A DNA stretch of 64,000 nucleotides from Clostridiales bacterium (GTDB taxonomy: Bacteria > Bacillota > Clostridia > Christensenellales > Aristaeellaceae): NCBI GenBank assembly GCA_015056325.1, contig SVGL01000007.1, positions 62,001 to 126,000 of the forward strand. Direction: 5' to 3'. Numbering within the stretch: the first letter of the stretch is position 1; every line of letters starts with the position of its first letter. Made by a program: the position numbers and the translations under genes. The notes under the pieces are model-generated. The model worked only from the letters and a program-made list of their open reading frames with translations. It was not told where the DNA came from and did no database searches. Of the stretch, positions 4,397 through 56,981 are shown piece after piece.

Positions 4397-6154
4397 TTAC
4401 GCGCCGAACTGCGCGTTGTACAGCGTCGCATAGAAACCGTTCTTTGCAATCAGCGTGTCATGATCGCCCTGCTCGACAATGTGGCCGTCGCGCATGACGA
4501 GGATCACGTCGGCCTCGCGGATGGTGGACAGGCGGTGCGCCACGATGAAGGACGTTCTGCCCTGCATCATCTTCGCGAACGCGGACTGGATGCGCAGCTC
4601 CGTGCGGGTGTCGATGGAGGAGGTGGCCTCGTCCAGGATCAGCATGGGCGGCAGCGTCAGCATCACGCGGGCGATGCACAGCAGCTGCTTCTGTCCGGCG
4701 GAGAGGTTGCCGCCGTTCTCGGTGATGACGGTGTCGTAGCCCTCGGGCAGTCGGCGGATGAAGGAATGGGCATGGGCGGCCTTGGCGGCAGCGGTGATTT
4801 CCTCGATTGTCGCGTCGGGCTTGCCGTAGGCGATGTTCTCGCGGATGGTGCCCGCCTTCAGCCAGGTATCCTGCAGCACCATGCCGATGTTCCGGCGCAG
4901 CTCGCGGCGCTTGATATCGCGGATGTCGACGCCGTCCACCCGGATGGAACCCTCGTTCACGTCGTAGAAGCGCATGAGCAGGTTGATCAGCGTGGTCTTG
5001 CCGCAGCCGGTGGGGCCGACGATGGCGATGCGCTGGCCGGGCTTGACATTCAGGGAGAAGTCCTCGATCAGCGGACGGTCGGGCACGTAGCGGAAGCTCA
5101 CGTCGGTGAGGCTGACGTTGCCCTGCGCGTCCAGGTCGGAGGCGTCCGCCGCGTCGGGCAGGCGGTCGGGTTCGTCCAGCAGGGTGAAGATGCGGCGCAC
5201 GCAGGCCAGCGCGTTTTGCAGCTCGGTCACCACGCCGGAAATCTCGTTGAAGGGCTTGGCGTACTGGCTGGCGTAGGAGAGGAACACGCTCATGCCGCCG
5301 ATGGTCATGCTGGGATTATCCGCGATGGCAAAGAGCGCGCACACCAGACCAACCGCGGCGTAGATGATGTTATTGACCAGGCGGGTGGAGGGATTCACGA
5401 GGGAGGAGAAGAAGGTTGCGTTCAGGCTGACCTTGCCCAGCCGCTCGTTGACTTCGTCAAACTCGGCGAGGCTCTCGTCCTCGTGGCCGAAGGACTGCAC
5501 GACCTTCTGGCCCTCGATCAGCTCGTTGATCATCGCGGTCTGCTCGCCGCGTACCTTGGCCTGCTCGGTGAAGTAGCGGTGGGTGCGCTTGGCGATGAAC
5601 GCCGCCACAAACAGGCTCAGGGGCGTGAGCACCACCACCAGCAGGGCGATGGAGAAATTCAGCGCCAGCATGATGCCCAGCGTACCGCAGATGGTCACCA
5701 CGCCGGTGAAGAGCTGTGTGAAGCCCATCAGCAGGCCGTCGGAGAAGGCGTCCACGTCGGCGATGACGCGGCTGACCACGTCGCCGGCGGGATGGGCGTC
5801 CAGGTAGGAAAGGGGCAAGCGTTGGAGCTTGCGGTTGGTTTCGTTGCGGATGTCGCGGCTGACGCAGTAGGCGATGCGGTTGTTGCTCGTCGCCAGGAAC
5901 TGCTGGGCAATTGCCGCAAGGATGGCGGACAGCGCGATCAGCAGCGCCCACTTGGTCACACCGGCCATATCCACCGCGCCCACGCCGATCATACAGTCAA
6001 TGGCGTTGCCGGAGAAGATGGGGATCAGCAGCGCTGCTGCCGCGCTCACGGATGCGCACAGCAGGCTCACCAGCACATGGGTGCGGTAGGGCTTGACATA
6101 GGTCAGCACCCGGCGGAGGGTCTGCAGGTTCAGGGCTGTTTTCTGCTTGCTCAT
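4397..6154 (-). CDS. ABC exporter half-transporter, consensus ATPase site subunit
   Basis: 585 residues, start ATG at 6154 with GGAGGTG upstream; ATG and the previous stop overlap (ATGA). Residues 1 to about 310 form the six-helix export domain and the rest is the nucleotide-binding domain, with Walker A GPTGCGKTTL, signature NLSAGQKQLL and Walker B MLILDEATSSID. The catalytic glutamate is present. With its partner at 6151-7986 it probably makes a heterodimeric multidrug or lipid exporter of the BmrCD/LmrCD type. The start before the overlap was rejected because it would extend into the partner gene without a ribosome binding site. Confidence 0.9.
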   Translation of the reverse strand: MSKQKTALNLQTLRRVLTYVKPYRTHVLVSLLCASVSAAAALLIPIFSGNAIDCMIGVGAVDMAGVTKWALLIALSAILAAIAQQFLATSNNRIAYCVSRDIRNETNRKLQRLPLSYLDAHPAGDVVSRVIADVDAFSDGLLMGFTQLFTGVVTICGTLGIMLALNFSIALLVVVLTPLSLFVAAFIAKRTHRYFTEQAKVRGEQTAMINELIEGQKVVQSFGHEDESLAEFDEVNERLGKVSLNATFFSSLVNPSTRLVNNIIYAAVGLVCALFAIADNPSMTIGGMSVFLSYASQYAKPFNEISGVVTELQNALACVRRIFTLLDEPDRLPDAADASDLDAQGNVSLTDVSFRYVPDRPLIEDFSLNVKPGQRIAIVGPTGCGKTTLINLLMRFYDVNEGSIRVDGVDIRDIKRRELRRNIGMVLQDTWLKAGTIRENIAYGKPDATIEEITAAAKAAHAHSFIRRLPEGYDTVITENGGNLSAGQKQLLCIARVMLTLPPMLILDEATSSIDTRTELRIQSAFAKMMQGRTSFIVAHRLSTIREADVILVMRDGHIVEQGDHDTLIAKNGFYATLYNAQFGA

Positions 6155-7986
6155 GCCTGCGCACCTCCCTTGGCGTGGTCGTTGCGGAACTGACTTTCGT
6201 GGATCTCGCGGTAGACCTCGCATCTGCTCATCAGCTCATCATGGGTGCCGCAGCCGACCAGCTCGCCGTCGTCCAGGACGAGGATCTGATCCGCGTGGCG
6301 GATGCTCGACGTGCGCTGGCTGACGATGAAGGTCGTGGTGGTGTCGGGCAGCTGGCGCAGGGCCTTGCGCAGGGCTGCGTCGGTGGCGTAATCCAGGGCG
6401 GAGGCGCTGTCGTCCAGGATGAGGATATCGGGCTTCGAGACCAGCGCGCGAGCGATGGTCAACCGCTGCTTCTGGCCGCCGGAAAGGTTGCGGCCGCCCT
6501 GCTCCACGGGAGCATCCAGCTGGCCGGGCTTCTCGCGGACGAACTCCGCCGCCTGCGCGGTTTCCAGGGCTGCCCAGAGCTCGTCGTCGGTAGCGGTCAT
6601 GTCGCCCTGCCGGAGGTCGGGCGTAAGCCCGACGAGCGACTGCGATTCTTTGGAATCGCTGAGCGAAGCCTTTCGTCGGGCTTGTCCCGAGGAAAGGCCG
6701 AAGAGAAGATTGGAGCGGATGGTGCCCTTGAACAGCTGGGCGCGCTGCATCACCACGGCCACACGGTCGCGGAGCTCATCGTGAGGCCAATCGGCGATGG
6801 GGCGGCCCATCAGGGACACGCTGCCCTTCGTCGCGTCGTAGAAACGGGGGATCAGGCTCACCAGCGTGGACTTGCCTGAGCCGGTGCCGCCGATCACGCC
6901 GATGGTTTGTCCCTTCAGCGCGCGGAAGGAAATGTCGGTGATGCTCTCGTCGCCCGCGCCCTTGTAGGTCAGGGAGACGTGGTCGAAGCGGACCGCTTCG
7001 GAGGATGATTCCGCATGGGCGGCCTTCTCCGGATAGGACATGGAGGTCTCCGTGTCCAGCACGGTGCCCACGCGGCCAAGGCTCGCCACGGCGCGGGTCA
7101 GCAGGACGATCAGGTTGGCCAGCTTGACCAGCTCCACCAGGATCTGGCTCATATAGTTGACCAGCGCCACCACGTCGCCGGAGAGCAGCGTTGCGCCATT
7201 CACCTTGTCTGCGCCGACGTAGAGGATGGCGATCAGCGCCAGGTTCACCACCACGTAAGTCATGGGGTTCATCAGCGCGGCGATGCGGCCAACCTTCAGC
7301 TGGGCCTCATTGAGCTCGCCGTTGGCGTTTGCAAAGCGCTCTGCCTCGGCTTCCTCGCGGCCGAAGGCACGCACCACTCGCACGCCGGTGAGGTTCTCGC
7401 GGGTGGCGGAGGTGACCGCGTCCAGCTTCTGCTGCACCTGCTTGTACATGGGGGAGGTCAGCTTCATCACGCCGAAGACGATCACCGCCAGCACCGGGAT
7501 GGCGATGACGAAGATGCTCGCCGCGCCCCAGTCGATGGTGAAGGCCATGACCATCGCGCCGATGACGATGAAGGGGCTGCGCAGGAACAACCGCAGGAAC
7601 ATGTTCACGCCGTTTTGAACCTGGTTGACGTCAGCGGTCATGCGGGTGATGAGGGTCGACACGCCGATGGTGTCCAGCTCGGTGAAAGAGAGCTTCTGGA
7701 TATGGGCCATCAGCTCGTGGCGCAGGCCCGTGGATGTACCGATGGCGGCCCGCGCCGCGAAGTACTGCGCCGTGAAGGAGCAGCCGAGGCCCACCAGCGC
7801 CATCAGGATCAAAAGGCCGCACTGGCCCAGGATATACCCGCCGTCCCGCGTGGGGATGCCGGTGTTGATGATATTGGCCACCACCAGCGGCACCAGCAGG
7901 TCAAACATGGCCTCCAGCATCTTGAACAGGGGCGCAATAATGCTCTCGAACCGGTATTTCTTCATGTATGGGAAAAGGTGTTTCAT
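6151..7986 (-). CDS. ABC exporter half-transporter, degenerate ATPase site, with in-frame palindromic insert
   Basis: 611 residues, start ATG at 7986 with AGGAGG 8 bases upstream. The order is an N-terminal membrane domain, then Walker A GGTGSGKSTL, signature NLSGGQKQRL and Walker B ILILDDSASALD. The residue after the Walker B aspartate is D instead of E, as in the degenerate subunit of heterodimeric exporters. Between LLFG and ATDDELW, about residues 427-460, lies a segment of about 30 residues (core DSKESQSLVGLTPDLR) not normally found there. It coincides with a DNA palindromic element also present inside rimO. Family members are usually about 575-585 residues, so the excess length matches the insert. 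Confidence 0.9.
   Translation of the reverse strand: MKHLFPYMKKYRFESIIAPLFKMLEAMFDLLVPLVVANIINTGIPTRDGGYILGQCGLLILMALVGLGCSFTAQYFAARAAIGTSTGLRHELMAHIQKLSFTELDTIGVSTLITRMTADVNQVQNGVNMFLRLFLRSPFIVIGAMVMAFTIDWGAASIFVIAIPVLAVIVFGVMKLTSPMYKQVQQKLDAVTSATRENLTGVRVVRAFGREEAEAERFANANGELNEAQLKVGRIAALMNPMTYVVVNLALIAILYVGADKVNGATLLSGDVVALVNYMSQILVELVKLANLIVLLTRAVASLGRVGTVLDTETSMSYPEKAAHAESSSEAVRFDHVSLTYKGAGDESITDISFRALKGQTIGVIGGTGSGKSTLVSLIPRFYDATKGSVSLMGRPIADWPHDELRDRVAVVMQRAQLFKGTIRSNLLFGLSSGQARRKASLSDSKESQSLVGLTPDLRQGDMTATDDELWAALETAQAAEFVREKPGQLDAPVEQGGRNLSGGQKQRLTIARALVSKPDILILDDSASALDYATDAALRKALRQLPDTTTTFIVSQRTSSIRHADQILVLDDGELVGCGTHDELMSRCEVYREIHESQFRNDHAKGGAQA
6612..6702 (-). repeat. Coding palindromic element, copy 1 (inside ABC exporter gene)
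   Basis: Plus-strand text runs GAGGTCGGGC, GTAA, GCCCGAC, then AGCGACTGC, a hairpin with arms GATTC and GAATC, then GCTGAGCGAAGCC and a terminal TCGGG/CCCGA hairpin. Copies 2 (22031-22103) and 3 (24007-24092) share this framework. In the sense of the gene it is translated as DSKESQSLVGLTPDLR without breaking the frame. Confidence 0.8.
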
Positions 7987-8016
7987 GCCGTTTCCTCCTG
8001 AAAGGTAATCCTCATG

Positions 8017-8045
8017 ATTATACCGCAAGCCGCCGCTTTCCTCAA
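8017..8045 (-). promoter_or_regulatory. Promoter of the ABC exporter operon
   Basis: Minus strand TTGAGG (8045-8040), 17 bases, TATAAT (8022-8017), 30 bases before the ATG at 7986. Confidence 0.65.
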
Positions 8046-14020: not shown

Positions 14021-14079
14021 GCTCCCTCAGTCAGCGAGCAAAAGCTCGCTGCCAGCTCCCTCGGGAGGGAGCCTTTTGG
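14021..14079. repeat. REP-like element, CTCCCTCAGTCAGC family (3' of gltX)
   Basis: CTCCCTCAGTCAGC, a GCGAGC/GCTCGC hairpin, then a GCTCCCTC/GAGGGAGC hairpin ending in CTTTT. It lies immediately downstream of the gltX stop. Confidence 0.8.
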
Positions 14080-16517: not shown

Positions 16518-16571
16518 CTCCCTCAGTCAGCGAGCAAGCTCGCTGCCAGCTCCCTCCCGGAGGGAGCCTTT
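16518..16571. repeat. REP-like element, CTCCCTCAGTCAGC family
   Basis: CTCCCTCAGTCAGC, AGCGAG/CTCGCT hairpin, GCTCCCTCC/GGAGGGAGC hairpin, CTTTT. It faces an inverted copy at 16637-16703. Confidence 0.8.
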
Positions 16572-18627: not shown

Positions 18628-19695
18628 TCAGGGATCCAGATAGATGTCCGAATCCTCATTGGGCTCGCAGTCCTCTTCGTCGCCGCCGATGATATCTTCG
18701 TCTCCGCTCACATCATCTCTGGAGGTATCGGAAGGCGCTCCGGTGCTTTCTTCCCGGTCGAGGGGAAGATTGGGCTCGCAGTCCTCTTCGTCGCCGCCGA
18801 TGACATCTTCGTCTCCGCTCACATCATCTCTGGAGGTGTCGGAAGGAGTTCCGGTGCTTTCTTCCCGGTCGAGAGGAAGATTGGGCTCGCAGTCCTCTTC
18901 GTCGCCGCCGATGACATCTTCGTCTCCGCTCACATCATCTCTGGAGGTGTCGGAAGGCGCTTCGGTGCTTTCTTCCCGGTCGAGAGGAAGATTGGGCTCG
19001 CAAGTCGGCTGGGGCGTCGGAGTCGGCACAGCCGTAGGGGCGGCCGTCACAACCGGCGGAGGTGTTACACTTTCAGGGGCAGAGGTAGGTGTAGGCGTCG
19101 GAGTCGGTGTAGACGTGGCAGTTGGGGCAGGCGTGTTCTGGGGCGTCGCCATGGGCGGAGCGGTAGCTGTCGGCGTGGACGGGACCTCGCTGCCCTGTGT
19201 GCTGACATACAGTTCCGTCGGGAAGCCTGCATCGGCATTGTAATAGCACAGATACACGCCGTCCTCCTCGTCTGAAACGACACAGACATAGGTATCCGGA
19301 GCCGTCTGCCAGATGGAGGTCACGCCTTCCGCCGCCTCAGCAGAGGCTTCCTTATCAACCTGGCCATACACGAGGGCCATCATCTGTTCAAGCATTTCGG
19401 CGTCCATCTCTTCGGGGACGATGGAGGCGCTGACCAGACGGTCATTCAGGAAGTTGCATACGATGGTAGCATGAAAAGAACCGATGTATACATTCTGCAG
19501 TAAGCCCTGGCTGGTGCCCTGGCTGCGGTCGATGTACTCGACGTCAAAGGCACCTCTGCCTTCTGCAGCCAGCACCTCCTCGGGCGTCATGCCCCAGTGC
19601 AGGCCATTGCGGAAGGTGAAGGCGGATTCCTCCGCGCAGGCAAAGCAGGTGCACAGCATCAAAACAGACAGCAGAATAGCAACGATCTTCTGCAT
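18628..19695 (-). CDS. Secreted protein with Pro/Thr linker and three 37-residue acidic repeats
   Basis: 355 residues from ATG at 19695 with AAGGAGG upstream. A signal peptide spans about residues 1-21 (CTCFACAEES). A globular domain follows (about 22-150, with HWGMTPEEVLAAEG and YIGSFHATIVCNFLNDRLV), then a Pro/Thr linker (TPTPTPTPTS). The C-terminal third is three nearly identical 37-residue repeats (CEPNLPLDREES, PSDTSRDDVSGDEDVIGGDEED), each with one cysteine and net strong negative charge, then a half repeat. The globular part resembles small secreted proteins in related genomes but is unnamed. The acidic tail could bind calcium or attach to the cell surface; this is inference. Confidence 0.75.
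   Translation of the reverse strand: MQKIVAILLSVLMLCTCFACAEESAFTFRNGLHWGMTPEEVLAAEGRGAFDVEYIDRSQGTSQGLLQNVYIGSFHATIVCNFLNDRLVSASIVPEEMDAEMLEQMMALVYGQVDKEASAEAAEGVTSIWQTAPDTYVCVVSDEEDGVYLCYYNADAGFPTELYVSTQGSEVPSTPTATAPPMATPQNTPAPTATSTPTPTPTPTSAPESVTPPPVVTAAPTAVPTPTPQPTCEPNLPLDREESTEAPSDTSRDDVSGDEDVIGGDEEDCEPNLPLDREESTGTPSDTSRDDVSGDEDVIGGDEEDCEPNLPLDREESTGAPSDTSRDDVSGDEDIIGGDEEDCEPNEDSDIYLDP
18661..18993 (-). repeat. Three tandem 111-base coding repeats
   Basis: Units start at 18661, 18772 and 18883 and differ by only a few bases. They encode the 37-residue acidic repeats of the surrounding gene. Near identity at the DNA level indicates recent duplication. Confidence 0.9.
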
Positions 19696-20784: not shown

Positions 20785-22179
20785 ATGACCACACCCCTCA
20801 AAGTAGGCATGATTTCCCTGGGCTGCAACAAGAACCGCGTGGACTCCGAGACCGCGCTGGGTCTGCTGGCAGACCACGGCTACACATTCACCGGCGACCC
20901 TGCGGACGCCGATATCCTGATGGTCAACACCTGCGGCTTCATTGAGTCCGCCAAGGAGGAGTCCATCGACACCATCTTCGAGATGGCCCAGTACAAGCAA
21001 ACCGGCAAGTGCAAGCTGCTGGTGGTGACGGGCTGCCTCGCCCAGCGCTACGAGGACGTGCTGAAGCAGGAGATCCCCGAGATCGACCTGCTGATGGGCG
21101 TCAACCAGTACAAGGAGCTGCCCGCCGCCATCGAGCGCGCCCTCAAGGGCGAAAAGCGCTCCTATTGCGCGGACGACAACTCCTACTACGCCCATGACCG
21201 CGTGCTGACCACGCCCTTCTACACCGCCTACACCCGCATCGGCGAGGGCTGCTCCAACCGGTGCACCTTCTGCGCGATTCCGCTGATCCGCGGCGCGTAC
21301 CGCAGCCGCCCGGAGGCTGATGTGCTGGCAGAGATCGAGCAGCTGGCCAAGCAGGGCGTGCGCGAGCACATCCTGGTCGCCCAGGATACCACCCGCTTCG
21401 GCACCGAAAACGGCGGGCACACCACCCTCCCCGAGCTGATGAAGAAGGCTGCCGCCATCGACGGCGTGGACTGGCTGCGTGTGCTCTACTGCTACCCGGA
21501 CGAGACCGACGACCGCCTGCTGGACGTCATCGCGAACACCCCCAACATCTGCAAGTACCTGGATCTGCCGATCCAGCACGTCAACGATGTGGTGCTCAGG
21601 CGCATGCACCGCCGGGGCAACAAGGCGGACATCCTGCGCTGCATTAAGGGGGCGCGCGAACGCGGCTTGACCCTGCGCACCAGCATCATCGTGGGCTTCC
21701 CCGGCGAGACGGAGGAGCAATTCCAGGAGCTGCTGGACGTGCTGGACGAGGCGGAATTCGACCGCCTGGGCGCATTCACCTACTCCCCGGAGGAGGACAC
21801 CCCCGCCGCCCGTATGCCCGACCAGATCCCCGAAGAGGTCAAGCAGGAACGTCTCGACCGCCTGATGACCATGCAGAGTGCCATCAGCCTGAGGCGCAAC
21901 CAGGCCCGCGTGGGCACGATCGAAAAGGTGCTGGTCACGGATGTGGGCGAGGACGGCTTCATCCTTGGCCGCAGCCACCGCGAGGCCCCCGAAACCGACG
22001 GCGAGATCGTGATCGGCCATCACCCGACGCAGGGTCGGGCGCTGGCTACGCTCGGCGAATCCAAGGATTCGCTGTCGCTAGTCGGGCTTCCGCCCGACCT
22101 CAGGCCCGCCATAGGCACCTTCGTCAACGTGAAAATCACCCAAGCTGACACCTACGACCTGATGGGAGAAATGCTGTAA
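20785..22179 (+). CDS. rimO: Ribosomal protein S12 methylthiotransferase RimO, with in-frame palindromic insert
   Basis: 464 residues, start ATG at 20785 with AAGGAGC upstream. The N-terminal MTTase domain has cysteines in LGCNKNRVDSE, NTCGFIESAKEES and VTGCLAQRY. The radical SAM motif is GCSNRCTFCAIP (C-x3-C-x2-C) and the C-terminal part is a TRAM domain. RimO adds a methylthio group to the conserved aspartate of S12. Within the TRAM domain, about residues 412-442, a segment with core ESKDSLSLVGLPPDLR separates IVIG from IGTFVNVKI; this is the translated palindromic element. Usual length is about 435-445, so the extra residues match the insert. pgsA overlaps its stop by one base. Confidence 0.95.
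   Translation: MTTPLKVGMISLGCNKNRVDSETALGLLADHGYTFTGDPADADILMVNTCGFIESAKEESIDTIFEMAQYKQTGKCKLLVVTGCLAQRYEDVLKQEIPEIDLLMGVNQYKELPAAIERALKGEKRSYCADDNSYYAHDRVLTTPFYTAYTRIGEGCSNRCTFCAIPLIRGAYRSRPEADVLAEIEQLAKQGVREHILVAQDTTRFGTENGGHTTLPELMKKAAAIDGVDWLRVLYCYPDETDDRLLDVIANTPNICKYLDLPIQHVNDVVLRRMHRRGNKADILRCIKGARERGLTLRTSIIVGFPGETEEQFQELLDVLDEAEFDRLGAFTYSPEEDTPAARMPDQIPEEVKQERLDRLMTMQSAISLRRNQARVGTIEKVLVTDVGEDGFILGRSHREAPETDGEIVIGHHPTQGRALATLGESKDSLSLVGLPPDLRPAIGTFVNVKITQADTYDLMGEML
22031..22103 (+). repeat. Coding palindromic element, copy 2 (inside rimO)
   Basis: The reverse complement reads GAGGTCGGGC, GGAA, GCCCGAC, AGCGACAGC, hairpin arms GAATCC and GGATTC, then GCCGAGCGTAGCC. It has the same orientation and reading frame relative to its host gene as copy 1. 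Confidence 0.85.
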
Positions 22180-24006: not shown

Positions 24007-24092
24007 GAGGTCGGGCCTTGGCCCGACCAGCGACAGCCAATGCATGCATTGGCCGAGCGTAGCCAGCGCTGCTTGAAAAGCAGTGATGGCCG
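24007..24092 (+). repeat. Coding palindromic element, copy 3 (intergenic)
   Basis: GAGGTCGGGC, CTTG, GCCCGAC, AGCGACAGC, hairpin arms CAATGC and GCATTG, GCCGAGCGTAGCC, then CTGCTT/AGCAG. Copies 1 and 2 lie within genes. The variable hairpin has different bases but full pairing. Confidence 0.8.
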
Positions 24093-24109
24093 AAATATAG
24101 GAGGATTTC

Positions 24110-26962
24110 ATGATGTTCCTGACTCGCAATGGTACTGCTCTGCCCTTTGTTGTGGAAGTATCCGCCCATGCGGGTGTATTGCGCGTGGCTGGCAAGGTCA
24201 TGATGGACGTGGAGAAGGTTTCCGGCGTGAAGCCCGCGCTGCTGCGAGCAGCTCCTGACGCGCCCCATGTGCTCTGCGCGACCCTGGGCTGCTCCGAGAT
24301 CGCTGACAGGCTCATCGCCCAGGGCAAGCTCCCCCAGGCGGAGGAAATCCGCGGCAAGTGGGAGTGCTATGTCATCGCCAAGGTGGACGGCAATCTGATC
24401 ATCCTGGGCTCCGACAAGCGCAGCACCGAGTTCGGCATGTTTGAGCTTTCGAAGTACATCGGCGTGTCCCCCCTGTGCTACTGGGGCGATGCGGATCCCC
24501 TGCCCTGCGCGGACGTCGAGCTGAAGGACGATATCTGCACCGTATCGAAGGAGCCCAGCGTCCGTTACCGCGGCCTGTTTATCAACGATGAATGGCCCTG
24601 CTTCGGCACCTGGGCAACCACCCACTTTGGCGGCGTGAACGCAGAAATGTACGACCACGTCTTCGAGCTGCTGCTGCGGTTGAAAGCCAACTACATGTGG
24701 CCCGCGATGTGGAAGAGCGTCTTCGGCGAGGAAGGCCCCGGCCCCCTGAACGAGGAGCTGGCGGATGAGTACGGCATTGTGGTGGGCAACAGCCATCATG
24801 AGCCTTGCCTGCGGGCGGGCGAGGAGTTCAAGCACTCCATCAAAGCCGGCGGCCAGTACGGCACCGACTGGAATTTTGTGCGCAACCGCGAGGGCATCAC
24901 CCGCTTCTGGGTGGACGGCCTCAAGCGCTCCGGCAAGTACGAGCACCTGATCACCATCGGCATGCGCGGCGAGGATGACTCCGCCATGCTGGGCGAGGAC
25001 AGCGGTCTTCGCGCCAATATCGAGTACCTCAAGGACGTCATCACCACCCAGGAAAGGCTCATACAGGAGCACGCGGGCCCCAAGTCGAAGGATCAGCCCC
25101 GTCTGCTGGCGCTGTACAAGGAGGTCGAGCCCTTCTTCTACGGCAACGAGAACGTTCAGGGCCTCAAGGACTGGGAGGGCCTCACCAACACCGTCTGCAT
25201 GCTGTGCGAGGACAACCATGGCTTCATGCGTTCCCTGCCCACGCCCGAGATGACCGAGAACATCAAGCAGCGCGGCTGCGGCTGGGGCATGTACTACCAC
25301 GTCGATTATCACGGCGGCCCGGTGAGCTACGAGTGGATGCCCTCCACGCCCTTCTCCCTGCTGTGGGAGCAGATGTGCCTGGCCTATGACTACGGCATCC
25401 ACGATGTGTGGATCCTCAACACCGGCGACCTGAAGGGCAACGAGGTGAGCCTCCAGCAGTTCCTGGATCTGGCCTACGACTACGACAGGTGGGGCAGCCA
25501 CATCGCTGACAACTGGCGCAGGTGGGTGGCGCATTTTGTCGCGGAAACCTTCCCTGGTATGACCTCCGGTCAGCAAAACATCACCGCCGAGCTGCTCATC
25601 GGCCTGTATGACCTGAATGGCAAGCGACGCCCCGAGGCGCTCAACGCCGGCGTATATCATCCCTGCCACGAGCAGGAATATACCCGCATGCACCGTCTGG
25701 GAGAGAAGCTCTGCCTGGACAGCTGCAGCCTCTGCGACAGTCTGGACGATCCCATGCAGGACGCCTTCTACAGTATGGTGCATCTTCCCCTGAAGAGCAG
25801 CGTCAACCTGCTGGAGATGCACCTGAATGCCGCTGTCAACGCCCACTATGCCCAGCAGGCCCGTCCGGTTGCCAACGAATACGCAGACCGCGTGGCCGAG
25901 TGCATGCAGCGCGACGCCGCCCTGTGCGAAGAGTACGCCGCCTTCCGGGACGGCAAGTGGAGCGGCATGGAGCAGGAAGCCCATATCGGGTTCATCGTCT
26001 GGAACGAGGACGGCTGCAAGCTGCCTCTGCGCACCTATGTGTACCCCTGGAAGGAGCCCCGCCTGAGCGCCTCCCGGGCAGATGCGGCCCCCGTTTACGG
26101 TAAAAAGTACGGCGCGCCCATGGTCATCCGTGCAGATGACTTCTGCGACGCAGGCGTGAGCCGTGTGGAGCTGGAAATCGCCAATGCCGGCGTGGGCGAG
26201 CTGAACTTCCACATTGAGGGCGAAGCGGACTGGCTGCAGGTTTCTCCCTCCTCCGGTACGGTCTGCGATATCGGCTATGTTGCCCTTGACTGTGACCGCA
26301 GCAAGCTGACCGAGGACGTCCAGCACTGCACGCTGACCATCATCGCCGACGACTGCAAGGTGCTGGTGGACGTCCACGCAAAGAAGCATGCTCCCAACGC
26401 CAAGCCCGCCTATATGCCCGTGAAGAAGGTCGTCACCATCGACGCTCCGCATTTCTGCGATCATCACGACGTGGACGGCGCGGCCTTCCGCGTGCTGCCC
26501 GGCTACGGCCGCAGCGGCAACCAGAGCCTGGCTGGCGGTGCCGTGAAGGTCTACCCCAACACCGCCGCCTTCGCGCCTGATGCGGACGCGCCTTCCCTCA
26601 CCTACCGCTTCTTCGCGGAGGAAGCTGGCGAGCATATCTGCGAGCTGTGGCTCACCCCCACCAGCCCCGTGCAGCCCAAGACAGCCATGCGCTGCACCCT
26701 GGAGATCGGCGGCGAAAAGCAGCTGATCACCTGCGTGCCCGATGACTACCGCGCGGGCGAGAACAGCGATCCCCGCTGGTGCCACGCGATGGTCAATCAC
26801 ATCCGCAAGGTGAAGATGGCCATCCACTGCGAAAAGGGCCTCAACGAAATCACCATCGGCGCGGTGGATCCCAACCTCATTCTGGAGCGCATCCTGATCT
26901 ACCCCGCGGGCCACGTCATGCCCGAGAGCTACCTCGGCCCGCAGGAATCCGCCTGCATCTGA
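24110..26962 (+). CDS. Glycoside hydrolase family 115 (xylan alpha-glucuronidase-like)
   Basis: 950 residues, start ATG at 24110 (ATG 24113 is equally possible), AGGAGG upstream. An N-terminal domain (about 1-150) precedes the catalytic barrel with RYRGLFINDEWPC, LLLRLKANYMWPAMW, YGIVVGNSHHEP and WILNTGDLKGNE, the conserved blocks of GH115. A C-terminal carbohydrate-binding-like portion is seen from about residue 680. GH115 enzymes remove (4-O-methyl)glucuronic acid side chains from xylan. There is no signal peptide, so it probably acts on imported oligosaccharides. A MATE exporter follows 19 bases later. Confidence 0.88.
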   Translation: MMFLTRNGTALPFVVEVSAHAGVLRVAGKVMMDVEKVSGVKPALLRAAPDAPHVLCATLGCSEIADRLIAQGKLPQAEEIRGKWECYVIAKVDGNLIILGSDKRSTEFGMFELSKYIGVSPLCYWGDADPLPCADVELKDDICTVSKEPSVRYRGLFINDEWPCFGTWATTHFGGVNAEMYDHVFELLLRLKANYMWPAMWKSVFGEEGPGPLNEELADEYGIVVGNSHHEPCLRAGEEFKHSIKAGGQYGTDWNFVRNREGITRFWVDGLKRSGKYEHLITIGMRGEDDSAMLGEDSGLRANIEYLKDVITTQERLIQEHAGPKSKDQPRLLALYKEVEPFFYGNENVQGLKDWEGLTNTVCMLCEDNHGFMRSLPTPEMTENIKQRGCGWGMYYHVDYHGGPVSYEWMPSTPFSLLWEQMCLAYDYGIHDVWILNTGDLKGNEVSLQQFLDLAYDYDRWGSHIADNWRRWVAHFVAETFPGMTSGQQNITAELLIGLYDLNGKRRPEALNAGVYHPCHEQEYTRMHRLGEKLCLDSCSLCDSLDDPMQDAFYSMVHLPLKSSVNLLEMHLNAAVNAHYAQQARPVANEYADRVAECMQRDAALCEEYAAFRDGKWSGMEQEAHIGFIVWNEDGCKLPLRTYVYPWKEPRLSASRADAAPVYGKKYGAPMVIRADDFCDAGVSRVELEIANAGVGELNFHIEGEADWLQVSPSSGTVCDIGYVALDCDRSKLTEDVQHCTLTIIADDCKVLVDVHAKKHAPNAKPAYMPVKKVVTIDAPHFCDHHDVDGAAFRVLPGYGRSGNQSLAGGAVKVYPNTAAFAPDADAPSLTYRFFAEEAGEHICELWLTPTSPVQPKTAMRCTLEIGGEKQLITCVPDDYRAGENSDPRWCHAMVNHIRKVKMAIHCEKGLNEITIGAVDPNLILERILIYPAGHVMPESYLGPQESACI

Positions 26963-56726: not shown

Positions 56727-56981
56727 CTCCCTCAGTCTGCGGGCAAGCTCGCAGCCAGCTTCCTCATGGAAGGAGCCTTTACGAGGAAGGCGGCGTACCC
56801 GCCGCTCCATCACTCCCTCAGTCAGTGCCTGTGGCACTGCCAGCTCCCTCCCAGAGGGAGCCTTTGCAAGGAAGGCGGCGTCCCGCCGCTCCATTACTCC
56901 CTCAGTCAGTGCCTGTGGCACTGCCAGCTCCCTCCCAGAGGGAGCCTTTGCAAGGAAGGCGGCGTACCCGCCGCTCCATTA
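56727..56981. repeat. Three tandem REP-like units
   Basis: Units of 86, 84 and 85 bases begin at 56727, 56813 and 56897, each CTCCCTCAGTC, a hairpin (GCGGGCAAGCTCGC or AGTGCCTGTGGCACT), a CTCCC/GGGAG-type hairpin, then AAGGCGGCGT and CCGCTCCAT. Units 2 and 3 are almost identical. Together with the hairpin they fill the 433-base gap between the SBP and permease genes. Confidence 0.85.

Follow-up and report, generated by a model that had tools for sequence, protein, structure and literature searches.

A three-hairpin palindromic element in one genus of uncultured gut Clostridia, found in open frame in genes and upstream of Shine-Dalgarno sites

Rickettsia is the best-known host of palindromic elements that lie in frame within genes, and some other bacteria have intragenic REPs. 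The Rickettsia palindromic elements (RPEs) are described as multi-copy palindromes in and between genes, in frame in conserved proteins and tolerated there (PMC2229807, PMC10969869, PMC3733652). Intragenic REPs are described from several species, with RAYT genes absent in some REP species (PMC3733652), and in-frame MITE fusions from enterobacteria and Neisseria (PMC2229807); PMC4853749 is a further source on these three kinds of element. Among the open-licence papers listed for such elements, no earlier case in Clostridia or Firmicutes was seen. The window analysed here, a 64,000-nucleotide stretch of one contig of a Clostridiales genome (G000), holds three copies of a self-complementary repeat, one inside rimO, one inside the gene of an ABC exporter and one between genes (Table 1). 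We think it quite likely that this repeat is a small non-autonomous hairpin element of about 89 bp, mobile or formerly mobile, which was amplified in one genus of uncultured gut Clostridia.

Table 1. Positions within the window of the genes and element copies discussed in the text.
Feature	Position	Strand	Basis and remarks
rimO, 464 aa	20785..22179	+	TIGR01125, E 7.3e-134; insert near C terminus
Full 89-bp element inside rimO	22013..22101	-	Antisense to gene; read as GHHPTQGRALATLGESKDSLSLVGLPPDL; covariance model R1, 103.1 bits, and reading frame
Hairpin 1 (GGTCGGGC-n4-GCCCGAC) and start of linker, rimO copy	22075..22099	-	Pattern match; none in 100 shuffles
ABC exporter gene with insert	6151..8028	-	ORF listing; PF00664 and PF00005
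Element in ATPase domain of ABC exporter	6613..6701	+	Antisense to gene; read as GLSSGQARRKASLSDSKESQSLVGLTPDL; R1, 90.9 bits
Free intergenic copy	24007..24093	+	R1, 93.2 bits; 5 nt upstream of AGGAGG of a 950-aa ORF starting at 24110

Comparison of further copies defines a unit with three covarying hairpins, formed by positions 4-10 with 15-21, by 30-36 with 41-47 (closed by 24-26 with 52-54) and by 56-68 with 74-86. The original prediction was right about where self-complementary DNA lies: a hairpin 1 pattern allowing up to three mismatches matches three times in the window and never in 100 shuffles, and covariance model R1, which was built from copies including these three, scores them at 90.9 to 103.1 bits. 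The extent it gave for the rimO copy, about 73 bases at 22031-22103, was too short; the element reaches beyond it and has a third hairpin. Among 22 non-redundant copies, 92.9% of stem cells hold standard pairs and both sides change in 17 of the 29 stem pairs, figures for a structure drawn from the same 22 copies it was scored on, which favours the paired percentage above all. Structures slid by one to three columns are 25-45% paired, and none of 500 shuffles reached any of five structure measures. The linker sequences are conserved as well as the stems. R1 matches are 81 to 105 bases long apart from one of 74, one of 151 and one truncated at a contig end, and no family among the Rfam 15 covariance models matched the element at six loci with E up to 1 (the scan did return a sub-threshold L20 leader and, elsewhere in L029, a weak match).

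Some copies are associated with other repeats. The copy at L153:2001-2151 is broken up by what appears to be another hairpin repeat, and those at L135:2001, L137:2001, L152:3089 and L160:3061 start with AAGGCT or GAGGCT and lie inside flanking inverted repeats (e.g. TTTTCGGC...GCCGAAAA) that form a larger hairpin enclosing the element. The window also contains a second repeat family (CTCCCTCAGTC...GCCAGCTCCCTC...GAGGGAGCC) at 56727-56981, 16518-16571 and 14022-14075, which looks like hairpins in a row and includes 84-bp tandem units at 56754-56981, as well as a 111-bp unit in three tandem copies (96% matches) at 18658-19002.

The insert in RimO lies in a region that we take to be the TRAM domain. 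Such residues in the RimO of relatives would have told against the original prediction; among 30 aligned RimO sequences the insert is present in that of the window and in none of the 29 relatives. Measured against G017, the closest relative for rimO (RimO 95% identical), the gene has 94 nt where G017 has 25, a net gain of 69 nt or 23 residues rather than the roughly 30 first estimated. An AlphaFold2 model based on 39 RimO sequences has a mean pLDDT of 90.8; within the insert, residues 415-430 fall below 50 and residues 431-440 average 74, and predicted strands at 408-412 and 446-454 flank it, in blocks averaging 88 (401-410) and 94-95 (441-460). According to this model the insert is most likely a partly disordered loop between well-modelled strands.

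RimO is one of a number of proteins affected in this way. In all, 13 genes that could be assigned to a family carry 15 copies, both minimum counts: glf, rimO, a response regulator, two ABC exporters, a radical SAM/B12 protein, ksgA, priA, an aldo/keto reductase, a GH130 enzyme, a glycogen-debranching enzyme, queA and a heparinase-like protein. This set was drawn from ORFs open through the element, 30 of which were scanned against Pfam (the family of rimO being taken from TIGR01125), and ORFs without a match were dropped. An open frame is therefore the condition of entry, so that its presence in all 15 is no result and frame-breaking copies are uncounted. Two further groups, some members of which may be genic, were also left out of the count: copies in ORFs lacking a domain match (e.g. 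L158, L169, L150:3181) and those close to the end of an ORF that has one (L155, L161). The inserted peptide measures about 23-30 amino acids across the carriers and falls inside or between domain matches in most of the 13 genes; it comes directly before the domain match in the GH130 and heparinase-like genes. The radical SAM/B12-binding ORF (L166:4340-6304) holds three open-frame copies in two orientations, the third just after the domain match. In the exporter of the window, the ABC_tran match (384-561) spans the insert, which starts after ORF residue 462. We infer from the sequences that the element is probably translated in at least 13 genes. As a separate observation, two different ABC exporters (L114:2001-2086 and the window's 6613-6701) apparently carry a copy in corresponding places, following N-(L/I)-(L/A)-F-G in the ATPase domain, but in different hairpin-2 frames.

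The original prediction supposed that the element sits in genes in a single orientation and frame. This is true of the RimO copy and that of the window's ABC exporter, which use the same antisense frame, but not of the family, whose 15 genic copies comprise nine antisense and six sense. Within the antisense group a single-frame rule nearly holds, in that eight of the nine copies share one hairpin-2 frame (p 0.0003), a frame that accounts for 28% of all antisense frames open in 127 distinct non-genic copies; the antisense frame most often open is used by one genic copy. Four of the six sense copies are in one frame (p 0.29, not significant), and overall the rule fails.

These frames bear on whether the insert reaches the protein at all. 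It might be removed from the mRNA or skipped by the ribosome, like the mitochondrial byp elements, a reading that would suit stable hairpins in coding sequence and has a precedent in the palindromic bypassed elements of yeast mitochondria (PMC6649704). Genic copies were picked by open frame, so frame-breaking ones would have been missed. However, bypass would not need open frames, which at least 15 copies in recognised genes have, and the antisense copies keep so largely to one frame though another is open more often; we consider bypass very unlikely.

Translation of the element may also have left a trace in its sequence. Hairpin 2 ends in a C-G rather than a G-C pair in eight of the 148 copies counted in the genome, six of them among the nine antisense genic copies and two elsewhere (Fisher p 2e-7, from a test chosen post hoc that treats copies as independent). 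In frame, this swap turns Cys-Lys-Gln into Ser-Lys-Asp, Ser-Lys-Glu and similar peptides while the stem pair is kept, and it occurs on both main backgrounds of the element (T22/T54 and G22/A54). Two antisense copies in domain-matched genes of other species encode Ser in an oxidoreductase (L330) and Cys in purL (L318). It is possible that the Cys-to-Ser change reflects selection on the peptide, or else a source subfamily. We see in it, with the stem pair preserved, some sign of adaptation of the element inside genes. The idea that the element is adapted to coding DNA gains that much, but coding DNA is not its main habitat, as 89 of 104 sites lie outside the recognised genic set.

The original prediction depended on there being further copies in the genome, and these are abundant. 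A first pattern search allowing up to three mismatches gave 43 matches against one for a reversed control. In the whole genome (3.06 Mb) there are at least 148 matches with E of 0.01 or better among the best 150 of 1535 candidates scored, and a second search of 83 stretches (356 kb) around copies, with E up to 0.0001, again gave 148. These copies occupy 104 sites, 94 of them single and 10 of them tandem arrays of 2 to 9. The equal spacing of 2257 bp in two pairs of copies was set down to chance, the element being all that the loci have in common.

Beyond this genome the element thins out quickly. Searches with R1 under stricter filters found matches in 15 of 17 genomes of the same genus (one of the 15 by a single weak match, E 6e-4), in 2 of 18 genomes from other genera of the family, with one match each, and in none of 24 from other families of the order. 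In a sample of 148 genomes across the class only G000 was positive, with none of the 147 others matching. Within the genus, copies per genome range from 0 to at least 148. No copy occurs in 80 rimO loci (1.33 Mb) of named relatives, loci that are small parts of their genomes, and two exact patterns found no match in viral contigs. For RimO, the nearest named relatives belong to uncultured Clostridia of the sheep and goat gut. A genus-restricted distribution with changing copy number is thus supported by the sequences compared.

The genomes in question are drafts, probably metagenome-assembled, and an artefact of assembly or binning could be suspected: G000 consists of 63 contigs at 84.9% completeness, one array sits at the end of a contig (C1) and some of the relatives' copies are near contig ends. 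Yet the rimO, ABC exporter and 24007 copies are inside a 140-kb contig, one insert, that in queA, is found in two genomes, and several sites are common to different genomes, all of which makes an artefact hardly credible.

Comparison of species reveals both filled and empty sites. The match to ksgA breaks at the insert in all eight other genomes of the genus with a match, and that to queA in nine of ten, with a net gain in G000 of 90 nt in each gene. The tenth queA genome, G007, has the insert as well (net +87). G011 is without it, and G007 groups with G011 (support 89/92) in a tree that is otherwise poorly resolved; recombination or loss must therefore be invoked to place the insert in G000 and G007 but not in G011. 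Of the 86 bases of the queA insert, 7 differ between the two genomes; five of these lie outside stems, although stems take up 56 of the 86 positions, and the remainder of the gene differs by 15.5% between the two carriers. The reverse arrangement also occurs, with copies in a G017 gene without a Pfam match (+90) and in purL of G007 (+87) at sites where G000 is empty, and an intergenic copy of G000 adds 88 nt over G012; these last three lengths are arithmetic on BLAST coordinates. The net genic lengths (+69, +90, +90, +87, +90, +87) are consistent with frame keeping, to which they are not independent witnesses, since the genes were chosen for an open frame. The site of the free copy at 24007 is empty in L172. 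Arrays vary too: the array before rpmI and that at L142/L326 have one copy in G000 and two in G017 and G002, respectively, and the C1 array has six in G000 and one in G017, compared on one flank only because C1 ends there.

On this evolutionary evidence, the filled and empty sites, we infer that the element is mobile. The prediction of a multi-copy hairpin element carried as an in-frame peptide insert agrees with the empty sites in relatives, the genus-restricted range and the changing copy number; that it is mobile or copying follows from the filled and empty sites, but no mobilising enzyme was identified. Separately, about 3 kb around a copy common to G002 (L319) and G000 (L154) is 97-99% identical, compared with 94% identity between the two RimOs, which suggests a recent exchange between these genomes.

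Outside genes, many copies share a setting. At 30 of the 89 non-genic sites, a Shine-Dalgarno (SD) motif follows 0-9 nt after the element in sense orientation, with a start codon behind it, against five sites in antisense (p 2e-5); for 54 of the 89, no SD plus start codon in sense orientation occurs inside 40 nt. Among 41 sites in four other species, 11 stand before an SD in sense and one in antisense. These 41 are the best-scoring matches listed rather than a random sample, and because some are common with G000 and three contig pairs repeat, they are a partial replicate of the bias. At 20 of the 30 SD sites, a same-strand ORF of at least 100 codons ends within 100 nt upstream of the element. 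A scan of 20 of the 30 downstream genes assigned 17 to families, which are unrelated to one another and include FloA, TrpS, RpmI, NusB, SigM-like, Tgt, MnmM and Dgt. Folding gave no support to the notion that a flipped element hides the SD and so causes the orientation bias, and showed no effect of the element or its orientation on accessibility: the mean unpaired probability of the SD over the 30 sites is 0.46 in sense, 0.43 flipped, 0.44 without the element and 0.47 shuffled.

A seat of this kind could mean that the repeat is a domesticated regulatory RNA, kept in 5' UTRs for stabilising or processing mRNA or for tuning translation, and that the genic copies are by-products. Such a role would explain the strong sense bias and the narrow distance to the SD, seen in G000 and in four relatives, but the identified downstream genes are unrelated, and most non-genic sites lack a nearby sense SD and start codon. 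G-U pairs exceed A-C pairs on the sense strand and the site upstream of rpmI is common to G000 and G017, which would also fit; set against this, copy number swings from none to at least 148 within the genus, and folding shows no effect on SD accessibility. We regard regulatory domestication as possible but doubtful.

The excess of wobble pairs deserves attention of its own. In the stem cells of 98 non-array copies there are 86 G-U against 25 A-C, omitting the pairs that are commonest as G-U; the counts including tandem arrays are 101 and 60, and the genic copies, 15 in number, give 5 and 3. The imbalance suggests that it is the top strand that folds, either as RNA or as single-stranded DNA, although the model used for finding copies itself favours that strand. 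Covariation of the stems could nevertheless be neutral, if template switching at hairpins, a known process (cited in PMC6649704), perfects them with no selection on RNA or DNA structure. Genic copies have 92.3% of their stem cells paired and other copies 93.6%, though there is no obvious RNA role in genes, and both bases of a pair are involved in the Cys-to-Ser changes, as template switching would have it. Correction of double-stranded DNA alone would not be expected to produce the asymmetry of G-U over A-C, but a one-strand model can inflate this asymmetry, which is also smaller with arrays; the conservation of the linkers is a further point against. We would entertain a neutral origin of the covariation as a tentative alternative, somewhat on the unlikely side.

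Returning to a mobile or formerly mobile element, the question is what would move it. There is no constant target duplication, direct repeats flanking 103 sites having a mean of 1.70 against 1.40 shuffled (maximum 1.77). At the element ends only TCGG/CCGA match nearby, judged by eye, there is no long terminal inverted repeat, and some filled/empty junctions show replaced or diverged bases. Neither the family search (PF01797) nor a search with a RAYT-like protein found a Y1 transposase in the G000 assembly, which is 84.9% complete; by either search Y1 transposases, some of them broken, are present in 8 of 18 genomes of the genus, with RAYT-like genes in G006, G007, G017 and, in two pieces, G011. 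R1 found no copy of the element beside the relatives' Y1 genes in 11 loci covering eight of nine places, with about 1.5 kb on each side. The eight genomes with Y1 have 4 to at least 73 copies and the ten without have 0 to at least 73, more copies going with Y1 (p 0.02, uncorrected for phylogeny or completeness), yet G000 has the most copies of all and no Y1 gene found in its assembly. As an aside, the RAYT-like Y1 protein of G006 (L292:1453-1950) includes VGAICDRPP, coded by a short GGGCGATC/GATCGCCC palindrome that is perhaps another coding palindrome.

We hypothesize that the element moves as a folded single strand and that a Y1 enzyme (HUH, IS200/IS605- or RAYT-like) or a similar one, supplied in trans, would move it. 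We hold this single-strand route conditionally, given the missing target duplication, the lack of Y1 in the G000 assembly and the lack of copies beside Y1 genes. The element would often settle, in sense orientation, in the narrow space that precedes an SD, and would there be transcribed as a stable mRNA structure. An insertion into a gene, if its length preserves the frame, would be translated as a loop, at least partly disordered, that is tolerated. Inside genes one antisense frame is favoured, and the Cys/Gln pair often becomes Ser/Glu or Ser/Asp, both bases of the stem pair changing so that the hairpin stays.

A bolder version of this hypothesis would make the element a new class: a single-strand mobile element that targets the untranslated stretch before SD sites, always the same way round, and spreads in the form of a transcribed RNA with three hairpins or of the corresponding single-stranded DNA. 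It would have evolved under the double constraint of hairpin and peptide, its genic copies adding loops of 23-30 residues in which paired substitutions remove cysteines without breaking the stem. We consider this unlikely. A young, abundant and genus-restricted family with filled and empty sites would let close relatives be used to test new protein segments against mere tolerance, and the sense bias upstream of SD sites is a second clue, of another kind, to the spread of small hairpin elements and their effect on mRNA. There is also a warning for annotation, in that insert peptides such as SLVGLxPDLR are element-derived.

By the features described for them, RPEs and intragenic REPs are the systems that the element appears to work like, a likeness that does not by itself make it a member of either. 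Like the RPEs, it is a multi-copy palindrome in frame in unrelated conserved genes. An RPE, however, is described as one long stem-loop, 105-146 bp in size, that has terminal inverted repeats, and the unit here has three separate hairpins in 89 bp; it belongs to another phylum, and most of its recognised sites are outside genes, many in sense just upstream of an SD. With the REPs of the GTAG/CGTC families, as these are described, it shares short palindromes, tandem groups and intragenic copies, and GTAG precedes hairpin 3 in most copies (model position 54, the T of GTAG, is T in 112 of 148, A in 30 and C in 6). REPs are 20-40 bp long, in contrast to the three-hairpin unit, and RAYT genes, the partners of REPs, were neither found in G000 nor, where relatives have RAYT-like genes, accompanied by a copy within flanks of about 1.5 kb. 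MITEs such as ERIC, RUP, Correia/NEMIS and YPAL are comparable as intergenic repeats of about 100-200 bp with structured transcripts, sometimes fused in frame (PMC2229807). The element differs from them in having no constant target duplication, no long terminal inverted repeat and a sense-biased seat by the SD. It also resembles a fourth group in its hairpins, the marking of one strand by wobble pairs and perhaps the lack of a constant target duplication, some junctions having replaced or diverged bases. These features belong to the palindromic elements derived from IS200/IS605 (PATE-like), although here no parent element was found, no target tetranucleotide was recognised and, in the flanks examined, no ends are common with a Y1 transposon. 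What is known, then, is the coding palindrome of the RPE or REP kind; what is unusual here is the three-hairpin unit and its sense-biased seat upstream of Shine-Dalgarno sites.
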